From Terriglobus sp. RCC_193 (GTDB lineage Bacteria; Acidobacteriota; Terriglobia; Terriglobales; Acidobacteriaceae), in assembly GCF_041355105.1 (NCBI RefSeq), contig NZ_JBFUPK010000001.1:496001-560000 (forward strand): DNA of 64,000 nucleotides. The letters run 5' to 3'. The notes beneath the pieces were generated by a model, which saw nothing but the letters and a program-made list of their open reading frames with translations, did not search any database and was not told the origin of the DNA. The position numbers and the translations under genes were made by a program. Of this stretch, positions 14,815 to 48,613 are shown one piece after another. Each line of letters begins with the position of its first letter. Within the stretch, counting starts at the first letter, position 1.

Positions 14815-15351
14815 ATACTACGCATTCGATGGGCGGACGTGGACTTCGAAACTCTTGAGCTGCGTGTGACCCGATCCATCTGGCATCAGAAGATCGGGGA
14901 TTGTAAGACGGAAGCCTCCGCAAAGCCGGTCCCACTCGACGGCTACATGGCGGAGGACCTGCTCCAGTGGCGGAAGAAGAGTCCCTATCCGATGCAAGAG
15001 GATTGGGTCTTCGCCAGCCCGACCATGAAGGGGGAACAACCCTATTGGCCGGACAATCTCATGAAGCGGTATATCAAGCCGGTCGCCAGGGCGAACGGCA
15101 TCTACAAGAACATCGGCTGGCACACCTTCCGCCACACCTTCAGCACGCTGCTGAAGGCGAACGGGGAAGATGTGAAGACGGTACAGGAGCTTTTACGGCA
15201 CGCTAACAGCAGGATCACACTGGACGTCTACACGCAGGCAGTGGGTTCCAACAAGCGCGCCGCACAAAGCAAGGTTGTAAGGATGATGATTCCCGGCGTG
15301 GGTCAGAAAGCGGGTGAGATCGACCCGCAGAAAGCTCAGGTTGGAGCTTAA
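14815..15351 (+). pseudogene. Tyrosine recombinase C-terminal fragment, copy 3 (catalytic residues intact)
   Basis: The frame reads LRIRWADVDFETLELRVTRS, then QEDWVFASP, GWHTFRHTF (HxxR), ELLRHANSRITLDVYTQAV (His and catalytic Tyr) and a basic tail ending at 15351. It begins only 6 bases after the preceding gene, and roughly the first half of a normal integrase (arm- and core-binding domains) is missing, so it is a fragment although every catalytic residue of the C-terminal part except the first Arg region can be seen. The stop lies 71 bases from the 3' end of tRNA-Asp, the classical position for an integrase at its attachment site. It is nearly identical to copy 2 from 14965 onward. Confidence 0.8.
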
Positions 15352-15421
15352 TGGACCCTTATTGGACCCGGATTTTTTTGTCACTTGAGGAGCCATACAG
15401 AACTAAGTTCTTTGTTTTGTA

Positions 15422-15499
<78 letters not shown>

Positions 15500-15589
15500 A
15501 AGTGCGTTCACACTTTGTTGTTTCTGGGTGCTCGAGGTTTGTTCCTTTTCAGGTCCAGACCGAGCTGCCCAACAACAAGATTGAGTGTA

Positions 15590-16984
15590 TCAGGTTTGAT
15601 CTTCGTTGACATGCTTTGCCTGAACCTTTTCCTGTGCATTTCTTTTCCATTCGTGAGACAAGTGCGATCTGCCAGCGTTGTTTTCCGATTGCAGCTTGGC
15701 TTCCAGTGTCAGGGGGAGCTGTTCTGTGTGCTTGCTGCTGCGGATGCGCTGTGCGTGGTAAATGCCGTCATGTCCCGAGAAGAGATAGCTCAAAATGCAG
15801 GCGATGGCGGCGTAGGCACCTGCTTCGGCTCCGAAGAGCTCCATGGCCATCAGCGTGGAAGCCAGCGGCGTGTTCGCAGCGCCTGCGAAGACCGCGACAA
15901 AGCCCATGCCGGCAAGCAGGGAAGGTGGCAGAGGGATCACCGAGGAGAGGGCGTTGCCCATGGTGGCGCCGATGAAGAACAGCGGAGTAACTTCGCCACC
16001 TTTGAAGCCTGTTCCCAACGTGACAGCGGTTAAAACGAGTTTGGCTGCGAAATCGTAGAACGGCAGATGCGTGTGGAACGCCGCGACGATTGTGGGAACA
16101 CCGAGTCCCAGATATCTGCCAGTGTGCGCGTAGCCGATGCTGAAGACCGTCGCCGTGATCAGAAGTCCACCAATGACTGGGCGCAGTTCGGAGCGATGGA
16201 TGAAGCGGCGCATGATGTTGGCGATGGCATGGGTGATGCGCGCGAAGAGCAGGGCGACAAGGCCAAAGAGAACACCCGCGATTGACGCATAGAGGATGGT
16301 GCGTACGTTGAGGCTGGGAACTTCTGAGACGGTATACACCGTGTGGCGAATGCCGGGGAGGATGGGGTCCCATGCACGTGTGACCAGATCGCCCACGAAC
16401 GCGGCGAGGAAGCAGGGGGCGATGGCGTCGTAGCCCATGGCTCCAATGGCGAGCACTTCCATCCCGAAGACGCCGCCTGCGAGGGGGGTCCCGAAGACGG
16501 AGCCGAAGCCTGCGCTGACGCCGGTCATCAGCAGGATGCGGCGATTCTGAGGTGACAGACGGAGTGGGCGTGTGAGCTGATCGGCAAGCGATGCACCGGT
16601 CTGCACAGCGGTGCCTTCGCGGCCTGCTGAACCGCCGAAGACATGGGTAAGAAACGTACCGATCAGGATGAGTGGCGTCATGCGGAAGGGGATGACGTCT
16701 TTGGGATCGTGAATCTGTTCCAGAATGAGGTTGTTGCCGCCTTCAACGGTTTTGCCGAAGTGGCGATACATCAGGCCCATCAACCATCCGACGGGAGCCA
16801 GCAGAAGGATCAGCCAGATATGGTTTTCGCGAAGGTTGGTCGCATAAGTGAGCGAGGCGAGCAGAATAGCGGACGCTGTTCCTGCAGCAATGCCGACGCA
16901 GCAGGCAAGGGGAATCCAGCGCAGCAGGTGACGCACCATGCTGAAAGGGTCGTTAAAGATTTGACGGAAATCGATTTTGGGCAA
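15590..16984 (-). CDS. CLC-type fluoride/proton antiporter (CLC-F)
   Basis: 464 residues with about ten to twelve membrane segments of the CLC fold. GREGT (121-125, gating Glu123) is intact. The canonical chloride-site loop GSGIP is replaced by GNNLI (83-87), and the later loop reads GFKGGEVTPLFFIG; both changes mark the fluoride-selective CLC-F branch. It would expel cytoplasmic fluoride using the proton gradient. A fluoride riboswitch lies directly upstream, which supports the substrate. The ATG at 17011 falls inside the riboswitch aptamer, so I prefer the TTG at 16984, preceded by AGGAGG with only 4 bases of spacing; the next ATG (16939) has no ribosome-binding site. Confidence 0.88.
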   Translation of the reverse strand: MPKIDFRQIFNDPFSMVRHLLRWIPLACCVGIAAGTASAILLASLTYATNLRENHIWLILLLAPVGWLMGLMYRHFGKTVEGGNNLILEQIHDPKDVIPFRMTPLILIGTFLTHVFGGSAGREGTAVQTGASLADQLTRPLRLSPQNRRILLMTGVSAGFGSVFGTPLAGGVFGMEVLAIGAMGYDAIAPCFLAAFVGDLVTRAWDPILPGIRHTVYTVSEVPSLNVRTILYASIAGVLFGLVALLFARITHAIANIMRRFIHRSELRPVIGGLLITATVFSIGYAHTGRYLGLGVPTIVAAFHTHLPFYDFAAKLVLTAVTLGTGFKGGEVTPLFFIGATMGNALSSVIPLPPSLLAGMGFVAVFAGAANTPLASTLMAMELFGAEAGAYAAIACILSYLFSGHDGIYHAQRIRSSKHTEQLPLTLEAKLQSENNAGRSHLSHEWKRNAQEKVQAKHVNEDQT

Positions 16985-16988
16985 TGGG

Positions 16989-17062
16989 CCTCCTACTGTC
17001 GTAGGAGTCATCAGCTCCAGCGTTGCCGCTGGGCATCAAGGCGAACCCCATCGCCTCCTGGT
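16989..17062 (-). promoter_or_regulatory. Fluoride riboswitch (crcB motif) with Shine-Dalgarno-hiding hairpin
   Basis: Read on the minus strand, GGCGATGGGGTTCGCC forms stem P1 (GGCG/CGCC). It is followed by a CCAGCG-GCAA-CGCTGG hairpin and then GCTGATGACTCCTAC. ACTCC can pair with GGGGT in the P1 loop, reproducing the pseudoknot and the conserved GCTGATG of known fluoride aptamers. The 3' part CTCCTAC (17007-17001) is also perfectly complementary to GTAGGAG (16996-16990), which contains the ribosome-binding site of the antiporter gene. Without fluoride the hairpin should hide the site; with fluoride the CTCC is used in the aptamer and translation is allowed. Confidence 0.88.
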
Positions 17063-17081
17063 TGTGTGCTGCGAGAACGGT

Positions 17082-17158
<77 letters not shown>

Positions 17159-17226
17159 GTTCCTGATACAGGATAACAAACTTAGTGGAGGATGTACGGT
17201 GTTGGCGGTGGAAGAATCTTAATCTT

Positions 17227-19092
17227 CTACAGGTGCATGGCGAGTGCAATGCGGTAGGTGGTAAACGATGCACCATAAGCCAGCACGGTCATGTAGGCGA
17301 ATTGCAGCAGTGGCCACTTCCAGCTATTTGTTTCGCGGCGTACGACGGCGAGCGTTGCTGTGCATTGCATCGCAAGCGCGAAGAAGACCAGCAGCGCGAT
17401 AGCTCCGGAAAGGCCGATCTCGCCACGCAGAGCATCGCCCACGTTGACCTGTCCGTAGAGTGTGGCCAGCGTGCTGACGACACTTTCACGTGCTACGAAT
17501 GCGCCAAGCAGTGAAATACCAACGTTGCGATTCAGACCAAGCGGATGCAGCAGAGGTTGAATGACATCGCCGAGCCGGGCGAGATAGCTTGCGCCCACAT
17601 CGCTGGGTTGGCCATTGTGGAACGGCATATGCGAGAGGAACCAGATGGCGAGGTTCAGCACAAGGATGACCGTACCCACCTGCTTCAGGAAGACCATGCT
17701 GCGGTCGTAGATGGCCAGTGCCACGGTGCGCAGGCGCGGCATACGATAGTTTGGCAGCTCGATGGCGAACATCGATGCCTGGCCCTTGAGTGCGCTGGAA
17801 TGCAGCAGCTTCGCAGTGAACAGTGCTGCGAGAAGACCGACCGCATAGAGCAGCATCAGCGTGACGGCCTGCAGGCCGAGCAGATTGCCCAGAACTTTGC
17901 GCTGCGGAATGAATGCTGCGATAAGCAACGCGTACACCGGCAGGCGAGCGCTGCATGTCATGAACGGCGCGATGAGAATGGTGGCAAGGCGGTCGCGCTT
18001 GGATGGGATAGCGCGCGTTGCCATGATGGCGGGAACGGCGCAGGCATAGGCGCTGAGCAGCGGCAGGAACGAGCGTCCGTTCAGGCCCACGTGGCCCATG
18101 GTGCGGTCTGCAATGACGGCTGCGCGTGCCATGTAACCAGAGTCCTCAAGCAGCGTGATCACAAGGAACATGCAGAGAATTGTGGGCAGAAAACCGAGGA
18201 TGGAGGCGATGCCGTTCCAGATACCATCGACGATGATGGCGCGCAGGATCGCGTCCGGGATATGCGCACCTGCCGCGATGCCAATGTTCCCAAGCCATGT
18301 GCTGAGCCATTGGCCTGCTGGATAGGCGAGGCGAAACATGATCTGAAATGCGGCAGCGATGAAGAAGATGCACATCAGCGGCCCAGCGACCGGATGCAGC
18401 GCCCAGCGATCAAAAGTGCGCGTGAACCTGGAATGATGCGGGCGGCGATATGCGCCGGAACGTGTGAGCGTGTTGCAGTCTGTAGCGCATCCGGGAGCGG
18501 CGTTACCACCGGCCTGCAGCACAGGCAGAATCTGTGCGGCGGCGTGCTCCCCGTTCAGAAAATGCGAGATGGCTTCCATGCCGGTGCCGCGGGACGCACT
18601 GATCAGGGCTGTAGGCGAACCTAATTCGCGTGCCACGGCCAGCGGATCAATGTAGCCGTCGCGTGCCACCAGTTCGTCCGCCATATTGATCAGCACCATG
18701 GTGGGGAGACCGCATGCCAGCACTTCATGGATAAGGCCCAGGTAGCGGTGCAGTGCTGTACCATCGACGACGAGCAGCACCGCATCCAGCTTGGGGACCC
18801 CGGGCTGCGCGCCATGCAGAACATTGACTGCGATCTTCTGATCTTCGCTTTCAGGTGTGAGCGACCACACGCCGGGAAGGTCAATGACTGTCTGTCCGGA
18901 CTTCAATCTGCCGGAGCGATGCTCCACGGTGACGCCGCTGTAGTTGCTGACCTTCTGGCGCAGTCCTGTCAGCCGATTGAACAGTGTGGTCTTACCGACG
19001 TTCGGCGGACCGATGAGACCAATGGTGTGATAGGCCCCCGCGGGTTTGGCCGATGTGGATTTCTCCACTGCGATGACCGTTACGGTGCTCAC
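17227..19092 (-). CDS. feoB: Ferrous iron transporter FeoB
   Basis: 621 residues. The N-terminal G-protein domain has G1 GPPNVGKTT, G3 DLPG, G4 NMAD (the FeoB form of NKxD) and G5 SAS; the C-terminal half has the repeated Gate/FeoB core membrane segments including YMARAAVIADR and AVPAIMATR. It imports Fe(II) across the inner membrane in a GTPase-controlled way. The GTG start overlaps the feoA stop by four bases (GTGA), so translation is coupled. The length is somewhat below the roughly 700-770 residues of many FeoB proteins, without an obviously missing domain. Confidence 0.95.
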   Translation of the reverse strand: MSTVTVIAVEKSTSAKPAGAYHTIGLIGPPNVGKTTLFNRLTGLRQKVSNYSGVTVEHRSGRLKSGQTVIDLPGVWSLTPESEDQKIAVNVLHGAQPGVPKLDAVLLVVDGTALHRYLGLIHEVLACGLPTMVLINMADELVARDGYIDPLAVARELGSPTALISASRGTGMEAISHFLNGEHAAAQILPVLQAGGNAAPGCATDCNTLTRSGAYRRPHHSRFTRTFDRWALHPVAGPLMCIFFIAAAFQIMFRLAYPAGQWLSTWLGNIGIAAGAHIPDAILRAIIVDGIWNGIASILGFLPTILCMFLVITLLEDSGYMARAAVIADRTMGHVGLNGRSFLPLLSAYACAVPAIMATRAIPSKRDRLATILIAPFMTCSARLPVYALLIAAFIPQRKVLGNLLGLQAVTLMLLYAVGLLAALFTAKLLHSSALKGQASMFAIELPNYRMPRLRTVALAIYDRSMVFLKQVGTVILVLNLAIWFLSHMPFHNGQPSDVGASYLARLGDVIQPLLHPLGLNRNVGISLLGAFVARESVVSTLATLYGQVNVGDALRGEIGLSGAIALLVFFALAMQCTATLAVVRRETNSWKWPLLQFAYMTVLAYGASFTTYRIALAMHL

Positions 19093-47366: not shown

Positions 47367-48613
47367 TTACACAGGAAAACCAGACCCGCGACCGCGTTCA
47401 GACACAAAAGGGAAGCCGCATAAAGGCAGTAGGACTAGGGACCGTTATTGCAATTGCCCTGGTCGCTGTTGGCGCCGTACCCAGGATCGCGAGTTATCGT
47501 GAAGCACTGGCGGCCACCAATGATGCTCCGGTAATGCACCCGGTCGTCACGGTCATCCATGCGCAGAAGGGCGAGCCTACTTCACAACTCATCCTGCCAG
47601 GCAACGTCGAGCCTCTCTATACGGCCAATCTCTTTGCCCGCGTGGATGGCTACGTGGAACGCCGCAATGTAGACATCGGAACAAAGGTGCGAGCAGGCCA
47701 GGTTCTTGCTGTCATTTCCTCACCAGAGATCGATCAGCAACTGAGCCAGGCGAAGGCAACCCTTGCTCAATCACAGGCTGCATTGCTGCAGTCGCGGGCT
47801 GCACTGGAGCAGGCGAAAGCGAATGCCGAACTTGCGCGCATTACGAAAGAACGCGATCTTCCTCTTGGAGAGCAACATGCCATCTCGCAACAGATTGTCG
47901 ATTCAGCGGTGCAGACGCACAACGCCCGTGTGGCTGATGTAGCGGCCGCAAATGCGAACATTGCAGCCGCTGAGGCAGCCGTAGTTGCAAACCAGGCAAA
48001 CGTTGCAAGGCTGCAACAGATGCAGGGCTTCGAACATATTGTCGCTCCGTTTGACGGTGTGATTACACAGCGCAACATTGAACGTGGCGACCTGGTAAGT
48101 GCAACGGCTCCTGCTGGTGGGAAGCCACTTTTCAGCATCGCGCAAAGTGACACATTGCGAGTCTATGTCGACGTGCCGCAGTCGGAAGCGGTCAACATCC
48201 GTGACGGACAGAGTGCTGTTATCCAGGTAAGTGAACGTCTCGGTCGCAATTACAGCGGAACCGTTACACGCAATGCATCCGCACTGAACGACGCCGCAAG
48301 AACGATGCGAACGGAGGTGCAGGTGGCGAACGGCGATGCGTCGTTGCTGCCGGGTATGTATGCGCAGGTTCACTTCACGCTATCGCAGCAGCATGCATCG
48401 CTTGTCATTCCTACCAGCTCACTTGTGGTGGACGGTGCCGGTATGCATGTTGTCACGGTCACCTCGCAGCATAATCTCCATTTCGTCCCAGTCACAATCG
48501 GAAAAGATATGGGTAAAGAGGTTGAAGTATTAGCTGGATTGAACGGCAGTGAATCGCTCGTTTCAAGTCCGAGCGATGTACTTAGTGAGGGGCAACATGT
48601 GGAAGTCCGCTAA
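47363..48613 (+). CDS. RND periplasmic adaptor (membrane fusion protein)
   Basis: 416 residues. An N-terminal membrane anchor (VGLGTVIAIALVAVGAVP) is followed by the lipoyl half-motif LFARVDGYVERRNVDIGTKV, an alanine-rich coiled-coil hairpin (about 120-210), the second lipoyl half FDGVITQRNIERGDLV, and beta-barrel and membrane-proximal domains (RTEVQVANGDASLLPGMYAQ). It joins the pump to the outer-membrane channel. The ATG overlaps the pump stop (ATGA), and the downstream channel gene starts within it. Confidence 0.93.
   Translation: MITQENQTRDRVQTQKGSRIKAVGLGTVIAIALVAVGAVPRIASYREALAATNDAPVMHPVVTVIHAQKGEPTSQLILPGNVEPLYTANLFARVDGYVERRNVDIGTKVRAGQVLAVISSPEIDQQLSQAKATLAQSQAALLQSRAALEQAKANAELARITKERDLPLGEQHAISQQIVDSAVQTHNARVADVAAANANIAAAEAAVVANQANVARLQQMQGFEHIVAPFDGVITQRNIERGDLVSATAPAGGKPLFSIAQSDTLRVYVDVPQSEAVNIRDGQSAVIQVSERLGRNYSGTVTRNASALNDAARTMRTEVQVANGDASLLPGMYAQVHFTLSQQHASLVIPTSSLVVDGAGMHVVTVTSQHNLHFVPVTIGKDMGKEVEVLAGLNGSESLVSSPSDVLSEGQHVEVR

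Follow-up and report, generated by a model that had tools for sequence, protein, structure and literature searches.

Organization of the Locus

We analyzed a stretch of 64,000 nucleotides (the window) from Terriglobus sp. RCC_193. On the minus strand, feoB (19092-17227), tRNA-Val(UAC), a fluoride riboswitch, a gene for a CLC-F antiporter and tRNA-Asp(GUC) follow one another in this order (Table 1). tRNA-Val ends 17 nt before the Rfam start of the aptamer on the same strand, and 26 nt lie between its CCA and the GGCGAUGG of the aptamer. The latter distance is 31 nt in the sister species G154 and G031. Besides the riboswitch and the two tRNAs, no match at the gathering score was detected when the 64-kb window was compared with Rfam.

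Three species (G000, which holds the window, G154 and G031; hereafter, the trio) share a conserved block that opens 63 nt ahead of tRNA-Val and closes with tRNA-Asp. Downstream of the block, all three species differ. Upstream, G000 differs, and G154 and G031 share the same neighbour. Thus, only G000 bears on the independence of the upstream edge.

Table 1. Features of the tRNA-Val to tRNA-Asp region (positions in the window).
Feature	Position	Strand	Basis
63-nt block before tRNA-Val (89-97% identity across the trio)	17159-17221	-	alignment
tRNA-Val (UAC), CCA encoded	17082-17158	-	ARAGORN; Rfam 74.3 bits
Fluoride riboswitch aptamer (RF01734)	16995-17064	-	39.8 bits, gathering cut-off 34
Joining segment J1/3, UUGAU before GC (consensus AACY before GC)	17035-17039	-	cmscan consensus, 18-row genus alignment
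P3 stem-loop, GC CCAGCG GCAA CGCUGG A GC	17014-17034	-	three-species alignment, fold
Expression platform, hairpin CUCCUAC-GACA-GUAGGAG	16990-17007	-	folds
Shine-Dalgarno AGGAGG	16989-16994	-	sequence
CLC-F fluoride/proton antiporter gene, 464 aa, TTG start 16984-16982	15590-16984	-	6D0J, Pfam, signatures, leader comparison
TACACT, candidate (extended) -10 of tRNA-Asp promoter, directly after antiporter stop codon	15584-15589	-	
tRNA-Asp (GUC), behind antiporter gene	15422-15498	-	ARAGORN

The CLC-F Antiporter Gene

When the translation of the gene was compared with solved structures by phmmer, its best relative was the CLC-F 6D0J (205.3 bits), whereas the best chloride CLC reached 43.6 bits. 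Pfam assigned the protein to Voltage_CLC with 238.6 bits. The three CLC-F signatures GNNLI, GREGT and GEVTP were all found in the translation; in the available part of PMC11139923, these signatures are given as GNNLI/GMGLI, GREGT/V and GEVTP. NCBIfam gave three matches, to ClcA/ClcB models, all of which were under the cut-off. The original prediction had named a CLC-F transporter from GNNLI and GREGT, and the comparison with solved structures agrees with this assignment. Judged from these similarities and signatures, the gene at 16984-15590 encodes a CLC-F fluoride/proton antiporter. The same genome carries two more CLC homologues with 28-29% identity (G000:C1:2015465-2016718 and G000:C2:1023320-1024333), which are presumably not of the CLC-F type.

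A close relative of the protein (50-100% identity) was detected in 18 of the 19 genomes of the genus, the exception being G160, which is 89% complete. At E ≤ 1e-50, 46 of 300 family genomes possess a relative, and some fluoride riboswitch was found in 126 of 150 family genomes. RF01734 scored above its cut-off upstream of CLC-F at all 18 genus loci. Several family genomes are rich in fluoride riboswitch matches: G114 carries 14, G067 carries seven, and G033, G088 and G138 carry six each. In some family genomes, fluoride riboswitches form back-to-back divergent pairs, for example at G101:C2:47478-47547 and 47656-47722.

Riboswitch-controlled CLC-F antiporters were reportedly described by Stockbridge in 2012, and the pair has been known since then. 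As in that system, a CLC-F protein with GNNLI, GREGT and GEVTP is encoded after a fluoride riboswitch. Unlike in that system, no promoter of its own was recognized here, and the leader lies directly behind tRNA-Val.

The Fluoride Riboswitch Aptamer

A fluoride riboswitch had been predicted at 16982-17062, with no strand given, from the complementarity of GGGGT and ACTCC. In the covariance-model search proposed along with it, cmscan at the Rfam gathering threshold placed RF01734 on the minus strand at 17064-16995 (E 1.5e-7 for the 64-kb window), and in a search of the whole genome this was the only RF01734 match at E ≤ 0.001. The predicted interval spans the aptamer and the expression platform and ends exactly at the start codon TTG. 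The prediction mentioned neither the two neighbouring tRNA genes nor the departure from AACYGC in J1/3. Both pseudoknot strands were located, GGGGU at 17049-17045 and ACUCC at 17008-17004. In the cmscan alignment, this pairing of L1 to the 3′ strand is present by sequence, as are the residues A6, U38, A40 and U48; the pairs A6-U38 and A40-U48 of fluoride aptamers are so named in the accessible parts of PMC10687018 and PMC11586693. In the three-species alignment, the loop-closing pair of P3 shows a double (compensatory) change relative to the two sister species.

The RNA shares with the fluoride riboswitch family (crcB motif, RF01734) P1, P3, the pseudoknot, the GAUG and CUGAUG elements, the position before a fluoride exporter and a score over the curated cut-off. 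It differs in J1/3, which is UUGAU-GC here and AACY-GC in the family. Since the RF01734 cut-off is still passed, this departure marks a variant and does not exclude the RNA from the family. Thus, the aptamer core is a further member of the known fluoride riboswitch family.

As far as the accessible parts of PMC10687018, PMC8752731, PMC11586693 and PMC11077080 describe the B. cereus crcB and T. petrophila riboswitches, the RNA resembles them in its pseudoknotted aptamer and, by sequence, in the A6/A10-U38 and A40-U48 residues.

In three other aptamers, G217 (L173), G212 (L175) and G039 (L174), GCUAAU stands in place of GCUGAU, and the aptamer of G151 (L061) has GGCGUUGG in place of GGCGAUGG. 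These changes fall at positions that are kept in the other aptamers compared.

Expression Platform and Start Codon

The platform hairpin consists of 7 bp, in which CUCC is common to the aptamer pseudoknot and GGAG is common to the Shine-Dalgarno sequence. It was present in folds with z values of -3.7 and -3.0. We compared it with the leaders of other CLC-F genes; of 48 CLC-F leaders, four (G217, G039, G212 and G241a) could not be parsed and are absent from the promoter, platform and helix counts. The corresponding pairing is possible with at least 6 bp (6-7 bp) in 36 of the 44 leaders and with at least 5 bp in all 44; four of these pairs follow directly from the invariance of CUCC and GGAG.

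The listed open reading frame starts with the ATG at 17011, within the aptamer. However, when the leaders are compared, the actual start falls on the TTG, 4 nt after AGGAGG. Among the 41 leaders with a recognized start (44 examined), the Shine-Dalgarno sequence stands exactly 4 nt ahead of the start codon in 26, and the start codons are TTG (22), GTG (11) and ATG (8). In the whole-leader fold, in which no pseudoknot was modelled, GGCGAUGGG of the aptamer 5′ strand pairs with CCCAUUGCC over the start codon. A start-codon helix of this type was predicted with a probability of at least 0.5 in 15 of 41 leaders, the three further leaders without a recognized start being left out of the folding counts.

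On the minus strand, no terminator-like site was detected in 15200-17400, where shuffled sequences gave an average of 1.9 sites on both strands. Since the platform hairpin covers the Shine-Dalgarno sequence and no terminator-like site was found, the leader is best read as a translational ON switch. The B. cereus switch works by transcription antitermination, according to the available parts of the four articles cited above; here, in contrast, it is the ribosome-binding site that the platform covers, and no terminator was found. We consider it highly probable that the RNA is a fluoride-ON translational riboswitch for the CLC-F fluoride exporter; the ON direction and the occlusion of the ribosome site are each the most likely interpretation. 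Without fluoride, CUCCUAC would pair with GUAGGAG and mask the Shine-Dalgarno sequence, and the pairing of GGCGAUGGG with CCCAUUGCC may additionally hold the start codon. With fluoride and magnesium, the GGGGU/ACUCC pseudoknot would capture CUCC and the hairpin would open. CLC-F would then be translated and fluoride exported.

The J1/3 Variant and Descent of the Exporter

UUGAUGC replaces the consensus J1/3, AACYGC, in G000, G154 and G031. Among 48 CLC-F riboswitches, J1/3 departs from the consensus in 13 of the 19 rows of one CLC-F clade and in none of the 29 rows outside it (Fisher p 1.4e-7, with rows that are not independent). One locus, L202 (G232), was left out, as it gave no CLC-F match because its contig ends there. 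Eleven of the 13 departures are GAYGC and two are of other kinds; G217 would be a fourteenth by eye. The GAYGC rows come from three genera. A pattern search in the phylum gave GAYGC in 4 of 396 genomes, with a strict pattern that fails to catch known variants such as that of G194, one of the genomes sampled.

In a tree of the CLC-F proteins, the trio lies inside the 19-row clade (support 97/99), in which 16 of the rows belong to other genera, and does not group with the 15 further CLC-Fs that come from its own genus. Support drops at the forks closest to the trio (93/86 and 92/72). Since the genus label requires three changes on this tree, the exporter and its leader were probably transferred horizontally between genera, as far as the tree can tell.

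According to the accessible part of PMC10687018, the J1/3 residues A24 and A25 of the B. cereus aptamer show a loss of reactivity when fluoride binds. Therefore, the change in J1/3 could matter, and with J1/3 departing from the consensus, fluoride binding is not assured. The variant aptamer might have lost or weakened its fluoride binding, so that the leader would now be constitutive or differently tuned. The missing AACY and the reactivity of A24 and A25 favor this possibility. However, P1, P3, the pseudoknot and the A6-U38 and A40-U48 residues are kept by sequence, P3 shows its compensatory change, and the GAYGC variant is present in three genera. Furthermore, the aptamer and platform are 92-97% identical between species, whereas their CLC-F genes are 84-85% identical. 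On balance, a loss or weakening of binding appears improbable.

A link of the J1/3 variant to the start-codon helix was considered and dropped: the helix reached a probability of at least 0.5 in 8 of 30 leaders of the consensus type and in 7 of 11 of the variant type. In a duplex test of this helix, seven leaders had p < 0.05, and all seven were of the variant type.

Transcription of the Exporter Unit

The sigma-70 score before the aptamer is 0.1 bits in the window and 2.9 bits in each of the other two members of the trio. Of 44 leaders scored, 39 are tRNA-free, and 23 of these reach at least 7.6 bits for a sigma-70 promoter. All 23 possess TTGAC and, after a spacer of 15-18 nt, a -10-like hexamer, which stands 14-17 nt before the aptamer in 20 of them. 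The promoter scan has blind spots, because 8 of the 39 leaders without a tRNA reach no higher score than those linked to a tRNA. In a consensus scan of the minus strand, no promoter-like site was found in 15200-17400; since shuffled sequences average only 0.7 sites, this absence says little. Between tRNA-Val and the aptamer, neither a promoter nor a terminator was recognized in the consensus scans, which miss promoters in some relatives as well.

Since no promoter of the usual kind was recognized before the exporter unit, the most likely source of the CLC-F mRNA is read-through of the tRNA-Val transcript, to which we give somewhat better than even odds. A tRNA-Val promoter that also drives the exporter is the simplest reading, with co-transcription and processing likely. 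The 63-nt block is presumed to contain the promoter from which both tRNA-Val and the antiporter mRNA would be transcribed; in a sigma-70 scan of this block, no good match was found, and 0.41-0.71 of shuffled sequences scored equally well. tRNA maturation would free the antiporter mRNA from the tRNA-Val transcript. In that case, the mRNA would be made constitutively, and fluoride would affect translation alone. In E. coli, thrU-tyrU-glyT-thrT-tufB is a transcription unit of tRNAs and an mRNA. The present locus is similar in that a protein gene directly follows a tRNA on one strand. It differs in that the mRNA opens with a riboswitch and in that co-transcription is a prediction.

A promoter of the riboswitch may instead be hidden in the tRNA-Val gene or the spacer, the tRNA being a mere neighbour. 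In G154 and G031, a loose -10-like CATCAT is present where the tRNA passes into the spacer, and the eight tRNA-free leaders noted above likewise have no recognizable promoter. In addition, tight linkage to a tRNA is rare (six stretches among 84,980 genomes, plus the lineage of the window) and may be a chance placement. However, the spacer of the window, with its 0.1 bits, lacks the 5-nt stretch that creates CATCAT, and the tRNA and the Rfam start of the aptamer are only 17 nt apart. A hidden promoter is therefore a possibility that we consider rather doubtful, and read-through from tRNA-Val is preferred.

In G161 (L058/L084), a tRNA-Ala directly before the riboswitch and CLC-F has decayed, with an intact 3′ half and a broken 5′ half. 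Its relative G162 has a full tRNA-Ala at the corresponding place. Since the leader and gene persist in G161, the switch there needs no working tRNA.

The tRNA-Asp Boundary

The leader of tRNA-Asp (15499-15589, minus strand, 91 nt) extends from the antiporter stop codon to the tRNA. It is 96-97% identical in the three species, above the adjoining coding sequence, and its region folds better than shuffled sequences (z -3.1). These properties, and the common strand of all four elements, would suit a single operon of tRNA-Val, riboswitch, CLC-F and tRNA-Asp, in which tRNA-Asp would be supplied by transcripts that read through the exporter gene. An operon would also fit the sigma-70 scan, in which no promoter was found within 70 nt of tRNA-Asp, and the lack of a good -35 for TACACT in the trio. 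However, TACACT lies 85 nt from tRNA-Asp, beyond the 70-nt range scanned. A TG-N ahead of the hexamer marks an extended -10. TG-N-TACACTCAATCTTGT is also present upstream of tRNA-Asp in G128 and G095, the G095 copy of the region having one difference further on, and the CLC-F genes of both lie elsewhere in the genome. Because of this recurrence, tRNA-Asp probably has its own promoter, as judged from the shared motif. The promoter-like element common to G128 and G095 weakens the four-gene operon, which we regard as unlikely.

In 6 of 50 tRNA-Val loci, a subset of those listed, tRNA-Asp stands close behind tRNA-Val; all six belong to other genera, and 5 of the 50 loci offer less than 1000 nt of downstream view. 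In five loci of the same genus (L146-L150), no tRNA-Asp was found within about 4.4 kb of tRNA-Val.

Insertion by a tRNA-targeting integrase was considered and rejected, as the CLC-F segment is not bracketed by a direct repeat of the tRNA-Val 3′ end. The repeat search around this segment gave two short repeats within the gene and otherwise just the two tRNA genes. Beyond tRNA-Asp lies a remnant of a tyrosine recombinase (Pfam Phage_integrase; 14839-15351, plus strand), whose end is 70 bp from the tRNA-Asp 3′ end. This position is as expected beside a tRNA that serves as an integration site.

Fluoride Riboswitches behind tRNAs in Other Genomes

We scanned a collection of 84,980 genomes, from which records nearest the genome of the window may be missing, for fluoride aptamers preceded at 12-42 nt by a tRNA with a CCA end. 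Six stretches were obtained. Two are from Terriglobus MAGs, L082 (tRNA-Ala, CLC-F) and L084 (the decayed tRNA, CLC-F). One is from another acidobacterium (tRNA-Ala, CrcB), two are from Elusimicrobia (tRNA-Val, CrcB) and one is from a member of Verrucomicrobia (tRNA-Ala, Na+/H+ exchanger). By a rough estimate, six stretches may equal the chance level, and with no denominator for this number we do not claim an enrichment of fluoride riboswitches behind tRNAs. At a spacing of 43-73 nt, no tRNA before a fluoride aptamer was found in 398 family genomes.

In G064, from another genus (L045 2901-4259), tRNA-Val, a fluoride riboswitch, CrcB, a DUF190 protein and tRNA-Asp lie in a row, and the riboswitch is 84 nt from the tRNA. 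Here, a fluoride exporter unrelated to CLC-F likewise occupies a gap between tRNA-Val and tRNA-Asp. No description of a riboswitch directly behind a tRNA was found in the literature, as judged by titles and the openings of abstracts, with subscription papers mostly outside its scope.

Implications

The pair of a fluoride riboswitch and CLC-F is already textbook knowledge; in this respect the finding is correct and mostly ordinary. The modest interest of the locus lies in the tRNA-linked layout without a recognized promoter and in the J1/3 variant. The exporter and its leader probably passed from one genus to another and came to lie between the two tRNA genes without the usual promoter. In the most far-reaching interpretation, to which we assign a probability of roughly 0.4, a horizontally moving promoterless riboswitch-exporter unit would have been captured behind tRNA-Val, where tRNA maturation would release an mRNA that is constantly produced and gated at translation only, and its aptamer would belong to a clade-specific J1/3 subclass (GAYGC for AACYGC). 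If this is true, a riboswitch could be moved without a promoter and would still be serviceable behind a tRNA, since control by its platform is exerted at translation. The clade would also provide a natural series of aptamers with altered J1/3, useful for probing the role of this conserved segment in fluoride binding.
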